Below, in pieces: positions 4,085 to 31,164 of a stretch of DNA of 34,655 nucleotides. How positions within the stretch are numbered: position 1 is the first letter of the stretch; each line of letters starts with the position of its first letter. The notes beneath the pieces were generated by a model. That model was not told where the DNA came from. It was given only the letters and a program-made list of their open reading frames with translations, and ran no database searches. Source of the stretch: Acidimicrobiaceae bacterium. Lineage in GTDB: Bacteria > Actinomycetota > Acidimicrobiia > Acidimicrobiales > RAAP-2. The position numbers and the translations under genes were made by a program. The stretch lies in the NCBI GenBank assembly GCA_025350565.1, contig JANXXO010000021.1, positions 1 to 34,655 on the forward strand, given 5' to 3'.

Positions 4085-5487
4085 GCTGGTCCCCTCAAGA
4101 GCTCCTGGGCGACGAGTCGATCGTCAAAGTCCAGGACCTCGCGGCCGATCGTTTGGGTCGTCTCGTGCCCCTTGCCGGCAATGACGACCACGTCACCGCG
4201 CACGGCCAGTTCGAGCGCGCGCGCAATGGCGCTGCCGCGATCGACGATGCGTTCGACCACGGCCGTCGCCACGACGCCGGCGATGACCGCGTCGATGATG
4301 GCGTCGGGAGATTCGGAACGGGGATTATCCGAGGTCACGATGGTGACGTCAGCCAGGGTGGAGACAACTTCGCCCATCTCGGGACGCTTGGCGCGGTCAC
4401 GGTCGCCCCCACAACCGAAGACCACGAGCATGCGCGACGACGGGACGAGCTGGCGTACGTCATGGAGTAGTCGGCGAAGACCTTCGGGCGTGTGCGCGTA
4501 GTCCACCACGACGGTGACGTCGGGTCCATTGAGCACGTCGAAACGCCCAGGAATGGCCGGTACATCACCCATCGCCGCAGCAATCGTGGCGTCGCCCACG
4601 CCGAGCACGCTCATCACCGTCATGGCGAGGAGCGCATTGTCGACGTTGTAATCGCCCACCAGCGCCGAGTTGATGAGGTGGCCGCGCCAAAAGAACGTTG
4701 AGCCCTTCAGCGAGGTCTCCACGTCGGAGGCGTCGGCTCGCGACACTGCGGTCAAGGGCAACGTGGTCATCTCGGCCAGGCGCGCCCCGAAGGGATCGTC
4801 GGTCCATACCACGGCGCGTTGGGCGTGCTCGGAGGTGAAGAGGCGCGCTTTGACTTGAAAGTACTCCTCCATGGTCGAGTGATAATCCAAGTGCTCGTGA
4901 CTGAGGTTCGTGAAGGCCGCCACCGCGAACGAAAGTCCGTCGACGCGACGCTGATCAAGGGCGTGACTGGAGACTTCTAAGGCGATCAACGACTCACTGA
5001 CGTTGGCGTCGAACTGGTTCACGAGGGACGCGAGGGAACGAAAGAGTTCGGGCGGCGCCGGCGTCGTGCGTTGGTTGGTGAGGGTGCCAATACTGCCCCC
5101 ATTCCAGCCCAGTGCGTTCGCGAGAGCGCTCAGAATGGTGGTGACGCTGGTTTTGCCGTTGGTGCCCGTGACCCCAACCAATCGGGCCTTCGATTCCGGG
5201 TGGCCCGTCACGGCAGCACTCGCGTGGGCGCACAGCGCCCCCAGCAGTGACGAGGGAACGAGGACGACCGGGGCGCCGACCGTCACCGGCGCACTCGCGA
5301 TGACGGCGACGGCACCGCGCGCGACGGCCTCGATGGCGAACTGCGCGCCGTGGGCCGACGCACCGGGCATGGCGAAGAACAGTGAGCCAGGTACGCATGC
5401 TCTCGAATCGAGGTCGACCTGACGAATTTCGATGCCGCCCGTTTGCACGTCGAGGGTGAGGTCATCCAAGATGTCGCCCAATTGCAT
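4078..5487 (-). CDS. murE: UDP-MurNAc-L-Ala-D-Glu--meso-diaminopimelate ligase
   Basis: MurE adds the third amino acid of the peptidoglycan stem peptide. The protein has 469 residues, with an N-terminal UDP-binding domain, the ATP loop GTNGKTS at 108-114, the lysine normally carbamylated in YFQVKARLF (Lys213), and a C-terminal domain with TSDNPRSE. The DNPR motif at 387-390 is the known signature for meso-diaminopimelate, as opposed to lysine-type enzymes, so the wall is predicted to be DAP-type. The start shares an A with the ftsI stop (TGATG). Downstream the gene runs directly into mraY with no room for murF. Confidence 0.96.
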   Translation of the reverse strand: MQLGDILDDLTLDVQTGGIEIRQVDLDSRACVPGSLFFAMPGASAHGAQFAIEAVARGAVAVIASAPVTVGAPVVLVPSSLLGALCAHASAAVTGHPESKARLVGVTGTNGKTSVTTILSALANALGWNGGSIGTLTNQRTTPAPPELFRSLASLVNQFDANVSESLIALEVSSHALDQRRVDGLSFAVAAFTNLSHEHLDYHSTMEEYFQVKARLFTSEHAQRAVVWTDDPFGARLAEMTTLPLTAVSRADASDVETSLKGSTFFWRGHLINSALVGDYNVDNALLAMTVMSVLGVGDATIAAAMGDVPAIPGRFDVLNGPDVTVVVDYAHTPEGLRRLLHDVRQLVPSSRMLVVFGCGGDRDRAKRPEMGEVVSTLADVTIVTSDNPRSESPDAIIDAVIAGVVATAVVERIVDRGSAIARALELAVRGDVVVIAGKGHETTQTIGREVLDFDDRLVAQELLRGPAC

Positions 5488-21202: not shown

Positions 21203-22087
21203 TTAGGAAATGGCTCCGTTAAGGATAATTTTCCCCGATCCCAAGGCTCCGCCTCCGACACCCCACTTGGCCAAGATGGCGTGGTACGTGCCGTTGGCAA
21301 TCAGCGTCTTGAGGGCCGCTTGAATGGCCTTGGAGAGGCCCTTGCCCGATGCGGTCTTGTTGGTGGCGATGCCGTAGGGAGCGACCTGAATCGCACTACC
21401 GACGACCTTGAACACGCCGCTGGAGGTCGAGGCAATGAAGCCGGCGATCTGGCTGTCGACGAATCCGAACGTGGCGTGACCGGCCTGGACCGCGAGGTTC
21501 GCTTCCGTCTGAGTCGTGAATGACGTCACGGTCATTTTCTTGTTCGCCGGACACGTCTTTGCGGTGGTGTTCGCATCGCTCTCTTCGACCGTGCCGGTTT
21601 CGACCGCGACCGACTGGCCACAGAAGCTCTTGAGTCCCGTGAACTTCACCGTCGAGGCCTTCAGCGCGTACACGCCTTCGCCGGCCTGGAAGTAGTCCAC
21701 GAAATTGACGCTCTTTTCGCGCTGTTTGGTGTCGGTGAACGACGAGTTACCTACCGCGTAGCGGCCCGAGTCAATACCGCCGATGATGCTGTCGAAACTC
21801 ACGTTGTTTTCGTTGACCTTGAGTCCGAGTGTCGCGCCGATGGCCTTCATCAGGTCGACGTCGAAACCAATCATGGTCGTTCCCTTGATGGACTCATCCG
21901 GTGGATAGGTGGCGTCGGTGGCCACTTGGAGCGTCTTGCCCTTGTAGGAGGCGGGAACCAACGCGGCGTCGGCGGCGTTGCGCTTGCCCGTGATGGTGCC
22001 GGCGCTGGCCGTCACGCTGCCGGCGAGCACCAGTGCGGCGACACCGCCTACGGCCAGCATCTGGCGAACTCGAATAAAACGTTGCAT
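21203..22087 (-). CDS. polar amino acid ABC importer, substrate-binding protein
   Basis: The 294-residue protein has a Sec signal (basic MQRFIRVRQ, then hydrophobic MLAVGGVAALVLAGSVTASAG), followed by a periplasmic-binding-protein type 2 domain starting LQVATDATYPPDESIKG and GFDVDLMKAIGATLGLKV, as in family 3 solute receptors. GRYAVGNSSFTDTKQREKSVNFVDYFQAGEGVYALK is the usual ligand-site stretch. There is no lipobox cysteine, which is unusual for a single-membrane organism that needs to tether the protein. GGGGAG precedes the ATG at 22087. The 98-base gap to the upstream exporter gene may hold its promoter. Confidence 0.93.
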   Translation of the reverse strand: MQRFIRVRQMLAVGGVAALVLAGSVTASAGTITGKRNAADAALVPASYKGKTLQVATDATYPPDESIKGTTMIGFDVDLMKAIGATLGLKVNENNVSFDSIIGGIDSGRYAVGNSSFTDTKQREKSVNFVDYFQAGEGVYALKASTVKFTGLKSFCGQSVAVETGTVEESDANTTAKTCPANKKMTVTSFTTQTEANLAVQAGHATFGFVDSQIAGFIASTSSGVFKVVGSAIQVAPYGIATNKTASGKGLSKAIQAALKTLIANGTYHAILAKWGVGGGALGSGKIILNGAIS

Positions 22088-22185
22088 GAAAACTCCCCTA
22101 TTTACCCTTCGACGAACTCGACGTCTGGCCTCCATTGATACCAGAAAACAGCTGGGCATTTGGAGCACCCGTTCCCGGACAACCA

Positions 22186-23733
22186 TCAGCCAGGTACCAG
22201 CTGGTGCGCGCCTCGAGGGGTGTGCGCCGGAAGATACACGTACACGGCGATCGCCACCACGATGGCCGTCGATGCCGCAACCAGGCATCCACGGTGCAGA
22301 CCATTCATGAAGGCCGCGGTCACGCGCGCGTCCACCGACCCTTGGACCGCCAACGGAAGGTGCGCCACGGTGGCCCGCGCGGCCTGCATCGAAGCCTGGG
22401 CGGCGTGCAACTGCGCCACGGTGAGACCGTGGCCGAGGAACGGTCGGAGCGCCTGTTGAACGCCCGGACCGAAGAGCGACGCAAAGACCGAACCGATGAT
22501 CGCCACCCCCATGGTGCCGCCGAGCTCGCGAGTCGTTTCGTTGCCGGCGGCGCCCGCACCGATCTGCTCGGGCATCAAGGACTCCATGGTGGCGGCCACC
22601 GACGGCGCGTTGACGAGTGAAAATCCGGTCGCCAGCGTGAGCATCGATCCAAGAATTGGTCCGGTGTAGGCGGCGCCGGCCGCCAAGGTGGACATCCAAG
22701 TGAGCGCACCGGCGGTAATGGCGAGGCCCAAGGGCACCACGACGCGCGGTCCGAGGCGAAGGGCCGCGCTGGCCGCGAGTGGTGTCGTCACCATGACGGC
22801 GAACGCAAAGGGCAGTGTGTGCACCCCGGCCGACAACGCGGAGTAGCCCCGCACGAGCTGAAAGTACTGCGTGACGAGGAAGATGAAGCCAAAGAGACAA
22901 AAAAAGTTGGTCGCCATGGCTCCCGCGCTTGCCGAAAAGGTTCGGTTCATGAAGATCCGCACGTCGAGCAACGGACCACTTCGCGCGAGCTCGTAGCGTG
23001 CGAAGCCGGTGAGCAGCATCACCGTGGCGCCGAACATGACGAGGGTGGGCGACGAGCGCCAACCCCATGACGGACCTTCGATGATCGCCAAGGTGAGGGT
23101 CGTTATGCCCGCCGTACCAAAAATGAGACCCCCGTAATCAACGGGTAGACGTTGTGGACTCGTCGATTCGGGCACCACCACATTGACGGCCACGAGTCCC
23201 ACCATGGCGATCGGCACGTTGACCAAGAAAATCGACCCGTACCAGAAGTGAGTGATGAGCGCGCCTCCGGCGATTGGACCGAGCGCGATGGCCATCCCCG
23301 TGGTGGCGCCCCAAATCCCGAACGCTTTCGCGCGTCCTCTCGGGTCATTGAACACCACCGTCAAGATGGAGAGCGTGGCGGGGAAAATGAACGCCGCGGC
23401 GGCCCCCATGAGCGCACGGGCCGTTAATAGGGTCTGCACGTTATGCGAGAACGCCGCCAACAACGAGAAGAGGGCAAAACAGACGAGGGCTATCTGCAAT
23501 ACCCGCTTGCGCCCGAGACGGTCCGAGAGCCCACCACCGGCCAAGAGAAGTCCCGCGAACGGAAGCGAGTATCCGTCCACGATCCACTGCAACGAGGAGT
23601 TCGAGGCGTGCAAATCCTTCGACAGCGTCGGCAGAGCGACGTTCACGATCGTGTTATCTACCACCACGAGGAAGACCGCTATGCACAGAACGAAGAGCAC
23701 CAACCATCGGCGTTCACCCACAATCGTCGGCAC
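22186..23733 (-). CDS. DHA2-family MFS drug exporter
   Basis: The 515-residue membrane protein is a second 14-segment-type exporter. It has VVDNTIVNVALPTLSKDLHASNSSLQWIVDGYSLPFAGLLLAGGGLSDRLGRKR at the start and the antiporter region GPIAGGALITHFWYGSIFLVNVPIA. It resembles QacA/EmrB-like actinobacterial exporters and differs clearly from the protein at 12627-14183, so the two are not a recent duplication. The start is GTG at 23733 behind a GGGGGG stretch. A dyad-symmetric site lies 22 bases upstream. Confidence 0.92.
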   Translation of the reverse strand: MPTIVGERRWLVLFVLCIAVFLVVVDNTIVNVALPTLSKDLHASNSSLQWIVDGYSLPFAGLLLAGGGLSDRLGRKRVLQIALVCFALFSLLAAFSHNVQTLLTARALMGAAAAFIFPATLSILTVVFNDPRGRAKAFGIWGATTGMAIALGPIAGGALITHFWYGSIFLVNVPIAMVGLVAVNVVVPESTSPQRLPVDYGGLIFGTAGITTLTLAIIEGPSWGWRSSPTLVMFGATVMLLTGFARYELARSGPLLDVRIFMNRTFSASAGAMATNFFCLFGFIFLVTQYFQLVRGYSALSAGVHTLPFAFAVMVTTPLAASAALRLGPRVVVPLGLAITAGALTWMSTLAAGAAYTGPILGSMLTLATGFSLVNAPSVAATMESLMPEQIGAGAAGNETTRELGGTMGVAIIGSVFASLFGPGVQQALRPFLGHGLTVAQLHAAQASMQAARATVAHLPLAVQGSVDARVTAAFMNGLHRGCLVAASTAIVVAIAVYVYLPAHTPRGAHQLVPG

Positions 23734-23855: not shown

Positions 23856-25322
23856 TTAAATCGAGGCCAACTCGTGGGGAGCGTCGAAACCGGCCGGCCA
23901 CCGACCCGGACGAGTGGGTCGTAACAACATGTCGGTGAGGTCCCGTCGCGAGTGTTCTTGGCGCCACACCAACTGCTCTTGCGCGGCGCGAAGCACGCGC
24001 TCGGGGTCACGACTCTCGGTGCGCCACGTTGGATCAAGGAGCAGGTCAAAGCATTTGAACGAACCATCGGCGAACTGGACGTAGCCCGTGTCATCAGTTA
24101 TGGATACGGCGAGATTAGCGAGCGAGAGCGAGCGATCCTGGGGCCAACGACCGGGCGCACCGCGAATCATGTAGGCGCGATAATCCCATTCGTAGTGCGC
24201 GGCGCGGCGCCAGGGCACCTTTTCTCCATTGAGCAACCCCGTCAGCGACCTACCATCGCATTGGGCGGGCTCGTCGAGACCCAGCGCATCGGCGAGGGTG
24301 GGCAGCAGGTCGACGTTCTCACTGAACTCATGGACGACGCGTCCTCCATTGGCCAACCGCGGGTCACGCCACAGGCCAATCACGTGATAGCTCTGAGGAA
24401 AGAAACCGAGTTTTTCCTTCAGACCATGGTCGCCCAGTTGGTCGCCGTGATCGGCCGTGATTACCACGAGGGTGTCGTCCCATTCGCCGCGATGCTCGAT
24501 GGCGTGAACCACTCGTCCAAGTTGATAGTCCACCTCACTGATCATTCCGTAGTACTGGGCACGTAGCGACCGCATCTCATGCGCGTCGGTAGGCGCGGCA
24601 CTGGCCTCCACTTGAAGTGCTGCCTCATGCACCCAGTGGCGCTCCTTTCCATCCACGGGAGCAATGGGGAGCTCGACGTCGTCGGGGTCGTACATCGTCG
24701 AGAATTCGCCAGCCGCGGCGTACGGGGGGTGTGGTCGAAGATAACTCAGGTGGGCGAACCAACCGCTTTCTTGTTTCTCCAACCACGTTTCGAAACGGGT
24801 GGTCAGAAAGCCGCTGAGCGAAAATTCGGCCGGTCGGTCTGGTTCTGAACGCAACGCGGACGACCACCCGCTCGGGACGTCATAACCGAGGGCGCGCAAG
24901 TAATGGATCCAGCCGGCCTGGCTCTCGGGGAGATAGAGGCCCACGGAGAAGCCGGGCAGCACGCCGTCGTAACTATCGAGACGCGGATCGTCCGGACCCG
25001 CCGCCGAATTCGGATCGAGGCCCTGATCCGTGTAGCCGAACAAGGTGGGATCGTAGCCGGCCCGTCGGGCCACGAAGGCGAGGTTGTCCAGTCCCGATGG
25101 CAAAGGGGTGCCGTTGGCGACGACGCGGTTGTTCATTTGGTACGTGCCGGTATACAACGCGGCGCGTCCCGGTGAGCACGGTGCGGCCTGCGAAAAGTGA
25201 CGCTCGAGACGTACGCCCTCGCCGGCGATTCGGTCAAGGGTCGGGGTGGCCACGAGCGGATGTCCGGCGGCCCCATAGGTGTCGCCGCGGAATTGGTCGA
25301 GCGTAATGAAGAGGACGTTCAC
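23856..25322 (-). CDS. sulfatase / phosphonate monoester hydrolase family enzyme
   Basis: This alkaline-phosphatase-superfamily hydrolase (488 residues) starts MNVLFITLDQFRGDTYG with the metal-binding aspartate. It has CSPGR at residues 49-53, fitting the C-x-P-x-R signal in which the cysteine is converted to formylglycine. Most relatives have Ser at the Gly position. VVITADHGDQLGDHGLKEK supplies further metal ligands. The overall look (YYGMISEVDYQLGRVV, DNLAFVARRAGY) is closer to phosphonate/phosphodiester hydrolases and choline-type sulfatases than to aryl sulfatases. No signal peptide is seen, so it is probably cytoplasmic. The GTG start overlaps the esterase stop (GTGA). The maturing FGE enzyme is not in the window. 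Confidence 0.88.
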   Translation of the reverse strand: MNVLFITLDQFRGDTYGAAGHPLVATPTLDRIAGEGVRLERHFSQAAPCSPGRAALYTGTYQMNNRVVANGTPLPSGLDNLAFVARRAGYDPTLFGYTDQGLDPNSAAGPDDPRLDSYDGVLPGFSVGLYLPESQAGWIHYLRALGYDVPSGWSSALRSEPDRPAEFSLSGFLTTRFETWLEKQESGWFAHLSYLRPHPPYAAAGEFSTMYDPDDVELPIAPVDGKERHWVHEAALQVEASAAPTDAHEMRSLRAQYYGMISEVDYQLGRVVHAIEHRGEWDDTLVVITADHGDQLGDHGLKEKLGFFPQSYHVIGLWRDPRLANGGRVVHEFSENVDLLPTLADALGLDEPAQCDGRSLTGLLNGEKVPWRRAAHYEWDYRAYMIRGAPGRWPQDRSLSLANLAVSITDDTGYVQFADGSFKCFDLLLDPTWRTESRDPERVLRAAQEQLVWRQEHSRRDLTDMLLRPTRPGRWPAGFDAPHELASI

Positions 25323-26269
25323 GACGATGCGTGTTCGACGTAACGGTGCATATGGACCGCGAGGTCATCGATGATAATGAGGGTCTCGGGCACGTTCGTG
25401 GGTAATCGCAAAAAACCGTGGATCATTCCCTCAGCCTCCAGCAACTCGACCGGAACGCCAAAGTGTTCGAGGAGTCCCGCGTAGGCCACGCCCTCATCGC
25501 GCAGCGGGTCACACTGCGCCACCACGACGATCGCGGGTGGCGCGCCGGTGAGGTCCTCGAACATCAGAGGACTCACGCGCGGATCAGTATGGTCGCGCCA
25601 TGGTCCGAGGTACAACTCGTAGTCGTAGCGCAAGTGCTCGACGTCCAGTACGTGACCCACACCGAACTTCCTCGCCGAATCGGTATAGAGCTCGGGCCCG
25701 AGGGTCGGATAGATAATCACTTGCGCGGCAATGGCGAGTCCTTCGTCCTTGGTCAGGGCGCAGGCCACGGTGATCAACGTGGCGCCCGCGGAGTCGCCCA
25801 TCACCATCAGTTGGGCGTCCGCACTATCAAATTCGGCCAGATGAGCAGCGACGTAGCGCAGGGTGTCGACGGCGTCATCAATGCCCGACGGGAATGGGTT
25901 CTCCGGCGCCAGTCGGTAATTCACGGCGAGAAAACGCATTCCGGTGTCGGCCGAGAGGCGTCGGCACAGTGCGTCGTGCGTGTCTAGGTCACCGACGACG
26001 AATCCTCCGCCGTGGAAATACACCACCAACGCCTTGCCCTCATCCTCGGGTGGCACGTACAGACGCGCACGGAGCGTTCGACCATCGAGGGCAAGGTCGA
26101 GGTCCCGCACCGACGCCACGGTGCTCACGTCGCCCCGGTGGGCCAACGCCACAGTGCGGTAGGCCGCGCGCCGTTCGTCAGCACTCAGCGAGGAGGGATG
26201 CACCGGCGGACTCTCGCGCACGGCGCGCACGTACGACTCCAGCGCTGGGTGGATCATTCCGAGCTCCAT
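25319..26269 (-). CDS. alpha/beta hydrolase, HSL-family esterase
   Basis: The 316-residue protein is of the hormone-sensitive-lipase type. It has oxyanion motif YFHGGGFVVGD, nucleophile motif GDSAG, aspartate in CDPLRDEG and histidine in MIHGF, completing the catalytic triad. LAVNYRLAPENPFPSGIDDA is the typical HSL stretch. Such enzymes cleave short- to medium-chain esters. No signal peptide is present. It is translationally coupled to the downstream sulfatase, so both may act on the same ester-containing substrate (inference). The gene starts 48 bases after the CHAD gene ends. Confidence 0.92.
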   Translation of the reverse strand: MELGMIHPALESYVRAVRESPPVHPSSLSADERRAAYRTVALAHRGDVSTVASVRDLDLALDGRTLRARLYVPPEDEGKALVVYFHGGGFVVGDLDTHDALCRRLSADTGMRFLAVNYRLAPENPFPSGIDDAVDTLRYVAAHLAEFDSADAQLMVMGDSAGATLITVACALTKDEGLAIAAQVIIYPTLGPELYTDSARKFGVGHVLDVEHLRYDYELYLGPWRDHTDPRVSPLMFEDLTGAPPAIVVVAQCDPLRDEGVAYAGLLEHFGVPVELLEAEGMIHGFLRLPTNVPETLIIIDDLAVHMHRYVEHASS

Positions 26270-26317: not shown

Positions 26318-27322
26318 CTAGGGAATGAGGTCGCCCCAACTGCGCCACGCAAGATGCACGTCATCCACGGTGGCGCCCCAGTCGCGGCGCGCGACCTTGC
26401 GCTCTCGGTTGTGGAAGTCCTCGATGCCGCGAAGGGGGTACTTGAGGTCCGGTTCCGTGACGACGAGCGCGCGCAGCCACTGTCGCGTGGCAGCCTGATC
26501 ATGGACAATGCCCAACTTCTTTTGTGCCGTCTCGGCGGCCCTCGCGACGCGTAGAGCCGGCGCTTCAACCGTGCCCACGACTTCGCAGCCGCACTGAAGA
26601 CGTTTCAGTTCAATTCGCAGCTGATGCAGGTGGTCATTGTTTGGGTGGTCGCGAGCCTTGCGGTGCGCCTTTTTCACGTCGCGCCACGCGGGCGTCAGTA
26701 ATCTCGAAAGTTCACCGTGCTCGGGCCGACCCGTCGCTTCGAAGCAGATGGACCGCGTCAGCGTCGACACTTCATCGACCACGCAGGCGTAGCGCTTCGT
26801 CGACTTCTCCACGGCGCAACGGTCCTGCGCCTGCGTGACGAGTTGGTCCAGTCGCGCCGTCACGAAGGACCTGATTGCGGGGTCACCCATCAACCCCAAG
26901 GACGTAGAAATTGAAGTCCGCAGGACGTCGAGATCGCGCACCTCGCCGAGTACTCCCGCGTACCATGAGAGTTCACTTTGCAAGGGCGCCGACCAACCGG
27001 CCTCGAAGAGATCACCAAAAGTACGCAGCGTTGATCTGAGCCGTCGCAGACTAAGACGTGCTTGATGAATTCGACCGAGCGTCGAGTTCCGTCGTCGGGG
27101 CTCGCGTCGTGCCAAAGGGTACGTGATCGCGCGATGGCCGGCCTCGAGCCGCTTGACTGACTGTTCCTCCGAGAGATCGTTCAAGACAAAATTTCGAGCG
27201 AACTGATCGAACGCGTCCGTGAGAAGGAGCCGATACAGCGGTCCGGTGGGCCCCGGCGGGCCCCGAAGCGCACCGGAATCGGAGATGAGCGGTTGCCGCG
27301 GCACGACGACTTCGTTCGACAC
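26318..27322 (-). CDS. CHAD-domain protein
   Basis: CHAD domains are alpha-helical, rich in conserved His and basic residues, and are known to bind polyphosphate. The 334-residue protein shows the two expected half-repeats: IHQARLSLRRLRSTLRTF followed by WYAGVLGEVRDLDVLR, and LHQLRIELKRLQCGCEVVG later. No CYTH triphosphatase domain is attached. The GTG at 27322 is preferred because GGGGAG lies 6 bases before it; an in-frame GTG at 27394 would add 24 residues without a good site. The Pro/Gly stretch GPPGPTGP lies near the start. It follows the PEP-synthase-like gene by 101 bases on the same strand. Confidence 0.88.
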   Translation of the reverse strand: MSNEVVVPRQPLISDSGALRGPPGPTGPLYRLLLTDAFDQFARNFVLNDLSEEQSVKRLEAGHRAITYPLARREPRRRNSTLGRIHQARLSLRRLRSTLRTFGDLFEAGWSAPLQSELSWYAGVLGEVRDLDVLRTSISTSLGLMGDPAIRSFVTARLDQLVTQAQDRCAVEKSTKRYACVVDEVSTLTRSICFEATGRPEHGELSRLLTPAWRDVKKAHRKARDHPNNDHLHQLRIELKRLQCGCEVVGTVEAPALRVARAAETAQKKLGIVHDQAATRQWLRALVVTEPDLKYPLRGIEDFHNRERKVARRDWGATVDDVHLAWRSWGDLIP

Positions 27323-27423
27323 AACGCTCTCCCCGATGAAGCCGACACTCGCGACGCGGATTTGCGCTGCTCTTACTCCCTCGACGCGTCGCACGCCTCA
27401 GGGGGAGACTAATCAAAACCACA

Positions 27424-28419
27424 CTAGGACGACGCGTCGAGGTTCACTCCCTCGAGGGCGCTTCGAGTGGCCGCGAGTTCGCCGGGATTGACCGAGACGG
27501 AGGAAAGTCCCAATCGCATGAGCTGTTGGATGAACTGGGTGGAATTGGGCGGCACACCGATGAGGGAGGAAGCGATTCCGGCCTGTCTCGCGCCGGCAAT
27601 GATCCTCGCGATCGTGTCGAAGACTGCGGCGTCGGTCTCGTCGAACAATTCGTCGGCAACAATCGAATCGCGGTCGACGCCCAACACCAATTGGGTGAGG
27701 TTGGATAGGCCTATCGCTACGCCCGTCACACCCATTGAGGCATAGTCACGAAGTCGGAACGCGACCGACGGAACCTCGGCCAGGATCGACACGGGAAGCT
27801 CTTTCTCAACGGCGCTGTCGCCGATGAGGTCGAGACACGCTCGAAGTTCCCAGTTACTTCGGACGAACGGAACGGCGACGCGAAGATTCGGTGACTCGCG
27901 AAACACGCGAGCTACGGCGTCCAGCTCCAAACGGAAAACGTCGGGTTCACGCACGGCGCGAAAGCAGCCTCGCAAGCCGCTCGCGCAGCTCTCGCCGGCG
28001 ACTTCGAATCGATCAGCGCCTTCGAGCAGTGCGAACTCGTCGCTTCGCAGGTCGAGGAATCGGTAGAGGACGGGACGACCCGTGAACGCTCGCGTCACCG
28101 TGAAAATCGATTCAGTCAGCGCGTGCACGAACGCAGCCCGACCTCCCCGCTCGATCAAGAGTTTCGGATGAACTCCCGCGAGGGCATCGGTGACCATGAA
28201 TTCGGCCCGAAGCAGTCCCACGCCGTCAACGTCGAGTGCGGCGACCTCATCGGCGTGTTCGGCGAAGGCCAGAGTGACCATCAGCTTGGTAGGGCTTCGT
28301 TGCCGGTACACCTGGCCCCTCGCGGCACCGATTGCCGAGGTCTCGTCGGGGAGAAATGAGGCGAACTCGCGTGGACAAAGGGGTAGGGAATTCGTCACGA
28401 GTTCCACGAAGTCGTCCAT
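27424..28419 (-). CDS. stand-alone PEP-synthase C-terminal barrel, catalytic Cys missing
   Basis: The 331-residue protein matches only the last third of PEP synthase (the PEP/pyruvate TIM barrel). It retains GVGLLRAEFMV (66-76), VLYRFLDLRSDEF (117-129), GLRGCFRA (148-155), AEVP with metal-ligand Glu215, and LGVDRDS. The ATP-grasp and phosphohistidine domains are absent. The metal-site motif normally SND(L/M)TQ reads LSNLTQ, so the Asp is Asn240. The loop normally containing the proton-donating Cys (ICGQ) reads SLIGVPPN, and no cysteine occurs after residue 195. It is unlikely to perform the normal reaction. It may bind PEP, pyruvate or a partner. The start at 28419 lacks a strong ribosome site. 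The 152 bases upstream, up to the tRNA, show nothing recognisable. Confidence 0.85.
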   Translation of the reverse strand: MDDFVELVTNSLPLCPREFASFLPDETSAIGAARGQVYRQRSPTKLMVTLAFAEHADEVAALDVDGVGLLRAEFMVTDALAGVHPKLLIERGGRAAFVHALTESIFTVTRAFTGRPVLYRFLDLRSDEFALLEGADRFEVAGESCASGLRGCFRAVREPDVFRLELDAVARVFRESPNLRVAVPFVRSNWELRACLDLIGDSAVEKELPVSILAEVPSVAFRLRDYASMGVTGVAIGLSNLTQLVLGVDRDSIVADELFDETDAAVFDTIARIIAGARQAGIASSLIGVPPNSTQFIQQLMRLGLSSVSVNPGELAATRSALEGVNLDASS

Positions 28420-28571: not shown

Positions 28572-28647
28572 TGGAGCGGACGACCGGGCTCGAACCGGCG
28601 ACCTCGACCTTGGCAAGGTCGCGCTCTACCAACTGAGCTACGTCCGC
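28572..28647 (-). tRNA. tRNA-Gly (anticodon GCC), CCA encoded
   Basis: Read on the minus strand, the gene folds as a complete cloverleaf. Acceptor GCGGACG pairs with CGTCCGC, the D arm contains AGCTCAGTTGGTAGAGC, and the anticodon stem CGACC/GGTCG encloses TTGCCAA with anticodon GCC. The T arm has the GTTCGAGC-type loop. The discriminator base is T, as usual for bacterial glycine tRNA, and a genomic CCA follows (28574-28572). It decodes GGC, a heavily used codon in GC-rich genomes. It lies between the WS/DGAT gene and the PEP-synthase-like gene on the same strand. Confidence 0.97.
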
Positions 28648-28691: not shown

Positions 28692-30125
28692 TTACGCCGA
28701 CTCGCCAGCGATGAGTAAGTTCGCTTCCTCTTCCACGTAGTCCCGTAGCGAGGCCAGATCAGGCAGAACCGATGCACTCGCGAGCAAGCCGAACTCCAAA
28801 TTCTCTTCGAAGCCGAGCACCGTGACGTTGAGGGAAAATGGTCCCAAAAGAGGCCCCACGGGTGCCGCCGAGACCACGCGGTGGCCGCTCAACCACAGCG
28901 GAATTGGCGGACCGGGCACCGACGAAACCATGAGATTGGCCGTAGGCGGAAGATGATCGAAGAGTTTGAAGGAGGACACGAGTCGAGCGCCCAGGGACAG
29001 CACAAAGGGACCGAGCATCTGCGGCATTTTCTGGAACATTTGCGCCCGACTCTGACGCTGCACGCCCACCGTCTTGGCTGAGTCCTTGGCAATCGCGCGA
29101 AGTCGTTCGTGAGGGTCGGCAATGTCGGCGTGCAGCGCCACCAACATGCCCGAAATCTGGTTGCCCATATTCGCCGCGTCGCTCTCGCGGCGAACGTTGA
29201 TGGGCACGAAGGCAATGAGGTCGTGTTGCAGCGCTTCGCCACGGTCGTGCAGGAGTCGACGCAATGCGCCGCTGGTCGATGCCATGACGAAATCGGTTAC
29301 CGAAGCGCCGTTGCTCTTGGCGGCGCGCTTGGCCTCAGCCAACGGAACTCTCGTTCGGTGATAGATCTTCTCCATCCCAGCCATTGCGTTCAACGAAGAA
29401 CGCCGGGCTTCAAAGATGGAGGGCTGCTCGGGCGTCGTACTCCTCCTCCCCCGAGCGAGTGCGACCATCACGGCGGTCCGGACGATCTCAAACAGGCGCC
29501 GCGCCCACGACGTCACCACTTCGAGCGCCAATGATGGTCGTTGCCCCAGTCGCCCGAGTGCGTCCCCGAGCAGCCCCAATGAGGTGGTCATCGGTTCGTC
29601 GAGGCCCGGGTCCGAGGGGATTGGTGCCGGTCGGCGAACTTCGGGTGAGATGTCGAAAAATCCAGCGAACGTCTCGGCGCCCGAAACGCCGTCAGCGAGC
29701 GAGTGGTGGACTTTCAGAACGAGCGCGATTGCGCCACCCGCCAGGCCTTCGATGTACAACAACTGCCACCGTGGACGCGTCGATACCAAGGTTCGCGAAA
29801 GGAACTCGGAGACCACATCGTCAAACTGGTCGGTTGAGCCGGGCGACGGAAGGGCCACACGCACCAGATGGCGGTCGACATCGAAGATGGGGTCGGGTAC
29901 GAAGGCCGGCCACGTGAGGTCGAGGGGCGAGCGAACGATTCGTTGCGTCAGCACCGGAATCTCGTGGAGCCGGTCGACGATATTGGTGCGGATCATCTCG
30001 TAGCGCTCGGTGGGATCCATCGCCTGGCCCGCCTCGAGCTCGATGACCGCCCCGATGTTCATGGCCGAACCTGGGATTTCGAGGAGCACGAACGCACTGT
30101 CCAGTGGGCCAAGGATTCTCTTCAT
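28692..30125 (-). CDS. WS/DGAT acyltransferase (wax ester / triacylglycerol synthase)
   Basis: These enzymes join acyl-CoA to fatty alcohols or diacylglycerol to make storage lipids. The 477-residue protein has the catalytic HHSLADG motif (140-146), an early LGPLDSAFVLLE typical of the family, FVPINVRRESDAANMGNQISGM, and the late NLMVSSVPGPPIPLWLSGHRV. Such genes are abundant in mycobacteria, rhodococci and related actinobacteria. Whether the enzyme makes wax, triacylglycerol or another ester is open. The ATG overlaps the dut stop (ATGA), an unusual partner. An acyl-CoA synthetase that could supply its substrate lies about 1 kb away on the opposite strand. Confidence 0.93.
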   Translation of the reverse strand: MKRILGPLDSAFVLLEIPGSAMNIGAVIELEAGQAMDPTERYEMIRTNIVDRLHEIPVLTQRIVRSPLDLTWPAFVPDPIFDVDRHLVRVALPSPGSTDQFDDVVSEFLSRTLVSTRPRWQLLYIEGLAGGAIALVLKVHHSLADGVSGAETFAGFFDISPEVRRPAPIPSDPGLDEPMTTSLGLLGDALGRLGQRPSLALEVVTSWARRLFEIVRTAVMVALARGRRSTTPEQPSIFEARRSSLNAMAGMEKIYHRTRVPLAEAKRAAKSNGASVTDFVMASTSGALRRLLHDRGEALQHDLIAFVPINVRRESDAANMGNQISGMLVALHADIADPHERLRAIAKDSAKTVGVQRQSRAQMFQKMPQMLGPFVLSLGARLVSSFKLFDHLPPTANLMVSSVPGPPIPLWLSGHRVVSAAPVGPLLGPFSLNVTVLGFEENLEFGLLASASVLPDLASLRDYVEEEANLLIAGESA

Positions 30126-30556
30126 CGTCCGGTGCTGCCGAAGCCCCCGGCGTCACGCGCGGCGCTCGGGAGTTCGTCGACGAGTTGGAAGTGCGCCGCC
30201 GCCACTGGGAGCACTACCAGCTGGGCAATTCGGTCGCCCTTCTTCACTTCGTAGTCGATGGTGGGGTCGAGGTTCACCAGCGCAATCATGACCTCACCGC
30301 GGTAGCCAGCGTCGATGAGACCCGGCGCATTGACGCAGGTCACCCCGTGTCGGGCCGCCAAACCGCTACGTGGCAGCACGAATCCTCCGTGACCCGCGGG
30401 TATGGCGACGGCGATGCCCGTCGCCACGAGTGCGCGGCCGCCGCCAGCGAGCAACGTGCACGACTCCACCGCCACGAGATCGCAGCCGGCGTCGCCCTCG
30501 TTCGCGTAGATTGGCACCACCGCGTCCGGGTTCAGCACCTTGATGAGGATTTCCAT
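30122..30556 (-). CDS. dut: dUTP diphosphatase
   Basis: dUTPase hydrolyses dUTP to dUMP and pyrophosphate, keeping uracil out of DNA and supplying thymidylate synthesis. The 144-residue trimeric-type enzyme carries all five motifs in order: DAGCDL (22-27), PRSGLA, GLIDAGYRGE with the catalytic Asp, GDRIAQLV, and the glycine-rich C-terminal GGFGSTG. Length is standard. It is divergent from orn across a 59-base gap and overlaps the WS/DGAT gene by four bases, so the two are made from one mRNA. Confidence 0.97.
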   Translation of the reverse strand: MEILIKVLNPDAVVPIYANEGDAGCDLVAVESCTLLAGGGRALVATGIAVAIPAGHGGFVLPRSGLAARHGVTCVNAPGLIDAGYRGEVMIALVNLDPTIDYEVKKGDRIAQLVVLPVAAAHFQLVDELPSAARDAGGFGSTGR

Positions 30557-30615: not shown

Positions 30616-31164
30616 GTGCTCGTGTGGATGGATTTGGAGATGACGGGACTCGAACCGACGCGTCACGTCATTGTCGAAATCGCCACCGTCGTCACCGATG
30701 ACTACCTCAACGTGGTCGCCGAAGGCCCCGATCTGGTAATCCACGCCTCGGACGCCGAGATGGCCGAGATGGGCGACTTCGTCACCGAGATGCACACGAA
30801 ATCCGGCCTGATTGCAGCGATCGCCTCGTCAAAGGTGACCGCGAAAGAAGCTGAAGACGCGACCTTGGATTTTCTGAAGCAACACATTCATGAGGCGCGC
30901 ACCATTCCACTCTGCGGCAACTCCATTGGCACCGACCGCCGATTTCTCCAGGAGTACATGCCCACTCTCGAGGAGTTTTTTCACTACCGCAACGTCGACG
31001 TGTCGACGTTGAAAGAGTTGACGCGCCGGTGGAATCCCGAGGTGCTGGCCGCCATGCCCGAGAAGGAGACGTCGCACCGCGCCCTCGACGACATCATGGA
31101 GTCGATCGCCGAACTCGCGCACTACCGCGACACCCTGTTCCCGCCAGCCAGCACCGCCAAGTAA
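30616..31164 (+). CDS. orn: oligoribonuclease
   Basis: Orn degrades short RNA oligomers, including pGpG from cyclic-di-GMP turnover, to mononucleotides. The 182-residue protein starts (GTG)LVWMDLEMTGLEPTRH with the DxE metal pair. It continues with GNSIGTDRRFL and ends with the HRALDDI exonuclease motif, the pattern of the DEDDh family. Spacing and length match E. coli Orn closely. The downstream acyl-CoA synthetase begins ten bases later, so they are probably co-transcribed. Confidence 0.97.
   Translation: MLVWMDLEMTGLEPTRHVIVEIATVVTDDYLNVVAEGPDLVIHASDAEMAEMGDFVTEMHTKSGLIAAIASSKVTAKEAEDATLDFLKQHIHEARTIPLCGNSIGTDRRFLQEYMPTLEEFFHYRNVDVSTLKELTRRWNPEVLAAMPEKETSHRALDDIMESIAELAHYRDTLFPPASTAK

Follow-up and report, generated by a model that had tools for sequence, protein, structure and literature searches.

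The open reading frame (ORF) at 27424..28419 on the minus strand is a PEP synthase by descent, as seen from its orthologous locus and barrel homology, and its position next to a CHAD gene is due to chance. It is a relic of gene loss, not half of a new two-gene system. In the reading we favor, with a probability of roughly 0.6, the PEP synthase has been truncated to a catalytically dead barrel that evolves under relaxed selection and is still translated under weak constraint. The window, i.e., the whole analyzed stretch of 34,655 nucleotides, is the entire contig C73 of genome G000, a 2.05-Mb draft of an Acidimicrobiaceae bacterium that is 93.8% complete in 98 contigs.

Domain composition and predicted fold of the barrel ORF

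The ORF starts with the ATG at 28419 and encodes 331 residues, with the barrel at residues 44-322. PEP-utilizers_C (PF02896, E 3.8e-38) is its sole Pfam domain. The Pfam search of the ORF gave no match to PPDK_N, the ATP-grasp domain, or to the phosphohistidine mobile domain with its T-C-H motif. NCBIfam PEP synthase models are covered by the ORF only over their C-terminal 40%, from model position 474 or 478. Both profile sets bear out the preliminary description of a barrel-only protein without the ATP and phosphohistidine domains. The ORF shares 52-62% identity with full-length relatives and matches the PEP synthases 9dae, 8a8e, and 2ols in the PDB.

An AF2 model of the 331-residue protein has a mean pLDDT of 78.9, and its eight strands lie within residues 44-309. 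Residues 44-322 are predicted to form an eight-stranded barrel, and the best Foldseek matches of the model are the PEP synthase barrels of 9dae, 2ols, and 8a8e. Residues ~5-43 (28291..28407, minus strand) link the start to the barrel and are predicted to be disordered, with a pLDDT of ~26-32; the model also shows disorder over the first 39 residues. An assignment of this linker to the end of the swivel domain was rejected, as 45 of 500 shuffles scored as well. The GC content at the three codon positions of the ORF is 0.68/0.46/0.71, near the values of the CHAD gene.

The barrel is known to fold as a unit from the PEP-binding domain of enzyme I and isolated PEP synthase barrels in the PDB (2bg5, 2xz7, 8a8e, and 9dae; Foldseek TM 0.72-0.82). 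Unlike the remnant, these belong to active enzymes whose catalytic loops are intact.

Loss of active-site residues

Alignment with full-length relatives shows that R71 (in GLLRAEF), R120, R150, and E215 (in AEVPS) are kept in the barrel ORF. The metal/substrate loop GSNDLTQ is changed to GLSNLTQ by N239S and D240N (27700..27705, minus strand). The loop SLCGQAPS reads SLIG-VPP, combining C287I at the position of the catalytic Cys (27559..27561, minus strand) with a one-residue deletion. The NPMIG motif is also gone. The SND and CGQAPS loops are retained in the aligned full-length relatives of the same clade. That the altered residues are catalytic is taken from what is established for PEP synthase, pyruvate phosphate dikinase, and enzyme I.

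The alignment agrees with the earlier account, in which the substrate arginines and one metal ligand were kept, the metal Asp was replaced by Asn, and the Cys loop had no Cys; the catalytic impairment proposed there also holds on sequence grounds. Judged from these residues, the barrel is catalytically dead. The ORF lacks the ATP-grasp domain, the mobile domain, and the Cys and SND loop that mark PEP synthase as a functional enzyme. It shares with the PEP synthase (pyruvate, water dikinase; TIGR01418 / PRK06464) of its Acidimicrobiales clade the C-terminal barrel, the fold, the locus, the arginines, and the AEVPS Glu, but has only ~40% of the length and is without PPDK_N, the mobile domain, the catalytic Cys, the Asn-Asp pair, and NPMIG.

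Across 37 relatives, 127 barrel columns are invariant, and 34 of these are altered in the ORF. The alterations affect 22 of 58 columns in active-face motifs and 12 of 69 elsewhere (Fisher p 0.015, with hand-picked motif windows), a modest excess of losses on the active face.

No PPDK_N, PEP-utilizers mobile domain, or second barrel was found anywhere in the 93.8% complete draft of G000. The genome therefore offers no separate half with which the barrel could work.

The same locus in related genomes

Genomes of the genus share the gene order orn-dut-WS/DGAT-tRNA-Gly-X-CHAD-esterase-sulfatase, in which X varies. The synteny anchors in the window are an oligoribonuclease-like gene (orn, 30616..31164, plus strand), a dUTPase-like gene (dut, 30122..30556, minus strand), a WS/DGAT acyltransferase gene assigned by Pfam (28692..30125, minus strand), and tRNA-Gly(gcc) (28572..28647, minus strand), which lies directly upstream of the PEP synthase or its remnant. 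The anchors that follow CHAD are an alpha/beta-hydrolase (Abhydrolase_3) gene (25319..26269, minus strand) and a sulfatase gene (23856..25322, minus strand). The orn and dut genes were named by sequence inspection, and their orthologues occupy the same place. Two long minus-strand ORFs elsewhere in the window, 21203-23068 (solute-binding protein) and 22186-23733 (MFS transporter), overlap; the solute-binding domain spans only residues 380-603 of the 621-residue ORF, which puts the likely true start near 22150.

X is the barrel alone in the window. In G003, of the same genus, X is a full PEP synthase with PPDK_N, the mobile domain, and the barrel, followed by an acetyl-CoA hydrolase/transferase gene; this locus spans two contigs that break inside CHAD. 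The G003 enzyme looks active from its sequence. The preliminary description had named a full-length PEP synthase at this place in a close relative as evidence against its proposal, and G003 supplies one. G104 has tRNA-Gly followed by a full PEP synthase, with CoA-transferase-CHAD 9 kb downstream on the same strand. X is the CoA-transferase gene alone before CHAD in G106, which has no PEP synthase there. In G033, G067, G072, G073, and G077, CHAD directly follows tRNA-Gly and nothing recognizable occupies X. Trees of neighboring genes place the window among the genomes that lack the CoA-transferase gene (support 80, concatenated neighbors). A search for CoA-transferase remnants in the window gave no credible match.

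Four of the sister genomes (G067, G072, G073, and G077) carry another full-length PEP synthase elsewhere, 35-38% identical, and G121 has a partial match to it. This enzyme may have replaced the copy lost at the tRNA-Gly locus. The window genome and G033 lack both the full PEP synthase at the tRNA-Gly locus and the 35-38% identical copy.

The 14-nt segment TCGTGGAACTCGTG (28396..28409, minus strand) exactly matches the start-codon region of the G003 PEP synthase, a match length reached by none of 1000 shuffles. It suggests an internal deletion that probably left the original start codon in place. The N-terminal two thirds of the enzyme, with the ATP-grasp and phosphohistidine domains, are gone. 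The active-site loops of the barrel no longer contain the catalytic Cys or the metal Asp, and loss of the acetyl-CoA hydrolase/transferase gene has placed the remnant beside CHAD. The two genes are therefore adjacent as a result of deletions, which took away both the first two thirds of the enzyme and the CoA-transferase gene in between. The remnant has evolved fast, and weak purifying selection most likely still acts on the protein.

A truncation or CHAD junction created by misassembly or binning could be imagined in a fragmented, incomplete draft in which the window is a whole contig. This is extremely improbable, as the neighbors on either side are all in conserved order, the numerous substitutions and the codon deletion in the barrel are not what misassembly produces, and the missing half of the PEP synthase is not found in the genome.

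The CHAD gene and its relation to the barrel

The CHAD gene (26318..27322, minus strand) matches PF05235 with an E-value of 7.2e-35 and a score of 121.4 bits against a cut-off of 25.6. The longest ORF begins at 27394; comparison with relatives suggests that the GTG at 27322 is the real start. With this start, the same-strand gap of 101 bases between barrel and CHAD gene given in the preliminary description is correct. Polyphosphate binding by CHAD proteins is ascribed to basic residues that surround a central pore, and the basic motifs HQARLSLRRLRS and LHQLRIELKRLQ of the protein look kept in the sequence. Stand-alone CHAD proteins (PF05235) are polyphosphate-binding modules, and their genes are reported to be housed often in operons with polyphosphate enzymes (PMC6537752). 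The neighbor of the barrel resembles them by its profile match, but differs in its surroundings, where an esterase gene, a sulfatase gene, and the relic of PEP synthase take the place of the polyphosphate enzymes.

In a two-gene system of the kind suggested earlier, the dead barrel would serve as a PEP or pyruvate sensor and act with the CHAD protein on polyphosphate. Two intact ORFs 101 bases apart on one strand and the kept substrate arginines are in keeping with this idea, but the comparative data make it highly improbable. The preliminary description counted a lack of co-occurrence with CHAD as evidence against its proposal, and no stand-alone barrel lies beside CHAD in any of the 98 other genomes of the genus searched. 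The CHAD orthologue occurs without one in all ten other genomes where it was found. It is present at the same locus throughout one subclade of the genus and is kept in sister genomes with no PEP synthase left there. The ancestral-looking order has another gene between PEP synthase and CHAD, and the barrel has lost the PEP-contacting Asn and the metal Asp. A literature search returned no paper naming both 'phosphoenolpyruvate synthase' and 'CHAD domain', and none with both 'phosphoenolpyruvate synthase' and 'pseudoenzyme'. At most, this lineage-specific barrel may have a residual role that is not tied to CHAD, e.g., binding of PEP, pyruvate, or phosphate through the kept arginines.

Short PEP synthase frames in the genus and order

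Barrel matches in 397 genomes of the order mostly lie in long frames; each short frame inspected turned out to be a split gene, a contig end, or a decayed copy. As candidate stand-alone barrels, loci L004, L114, L115, and L027 of the genus were rejected as contig ends, and L053, L016/L122, and L119 were rejected since the upstream part is present in another frame. The stretches examined around the order-level loci L119-L122 contain no match to the CHAD protein of the window. L053 (JAOSJK010000012.1), L122 (G040:C99), and L119 (G417:C122) encode PEP synthase in two ORFs in different frames, which meet near the boundary between the mobile domain and the barrel. The barrel half keeps the Cys in all three, and a frameshift, a sequencing error, or a natural split are candidate explanations. 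L121, at ~4333-4938 (minus strand) of the 3.7-Mb single contig of G186, is an independent PEP synthase remnant, a 258-residue frame with the C-terminal part of the barrel. This half-barrel has an intact CGQAPS motif and keeps the Cys.

Probable selection on the remnant

With 0.88 amino acid changes per site, the branch of the window barrel is several-fold longer than the branches of relatives. Neither a stop nor a frameshift interrupts the ORF, although it has accumulated ~0.5 nonsynonymous changes per codon. Calibrated on six neighboring genes, the synonymous length of the branch is ~0.83 per codon, and up to ~1.35 when the path to the PEP-synthase-bearing clade is included by extrapolation from branch lengths. 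Neutral simulations produce ~3-6 stops in the 280 barrel codons when the ancestor shares 84-100% identity with the G003 protein; the number falls to 1.8-2.7 for the most distant of the ancestors tried.

Codon models with two phases were compared under both topologies. An enzyme-like phase followed by one with omega2 of 0.13-0.34 is better by 3.3-6.8 lnL than an enzyme-like phase followed by neutrality, and none of 60 neutral simulations attains the observed 2dlnL; these values come from a remnant present in one genome only, with no second strain found and synonymous sites near saturation. A single-omega branch model also rejects omega = 1 (2dlnL 116) but gives unrealistic synonymous lengths, and was replaced by the calibrated two-phase models. 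The count of changed invariant sites was dropped as a test of neutrality, as it is not discriminating: neutral decay following ordinary divergence would change roughly as many as the 34 of 127 observed.

The substantial alternative, with the lesser probability, is a plain pseudogene that has drifted neutrally since the deletion and has not yet acquired a stop, a frameshift, or a further deletion. It would fit the complete loss of the gene from sister genomes, the loss of catalysis, the long branch, and the number of changed invariant residues. Neutral drift should have left several stops and probably frameshifts in 331 codons, so the intact frame speaks for a translated barrel instead, as do the poorer fit of a neutral second phase and the kept GC structure by codon position. 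We therefore favor the translated barrel under weak constraint, and anything other than these two readings is quite improbable. The earlier view of a retained pseudoenzyme stands in its first part, as the barrel is dead by sequence; its retention is plausible, with moderate support from the codon models and the intact ORF. That selection has kept the dead barrel for a new role unconnected with CHAD, such as ligand binding or scaffolding as a stand-alone protein, in a genome now without PEP synthase or pyruvate phosphate dikinase, is less likely than not.

Implications for gene loss

Within one genus, the same tRNA-Gly locus presents a full gene, a truncated remnant, and a clean loss, which are steps in the disappearance of a gene of central metabolism. 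The locus also gives a warning that deletions can bring two intact ORFs side by side in one genome. Should the remnant prove constrained and expressed, it would offer a test case, though a small one, of the passage from enzyme to pseudoenzyme.
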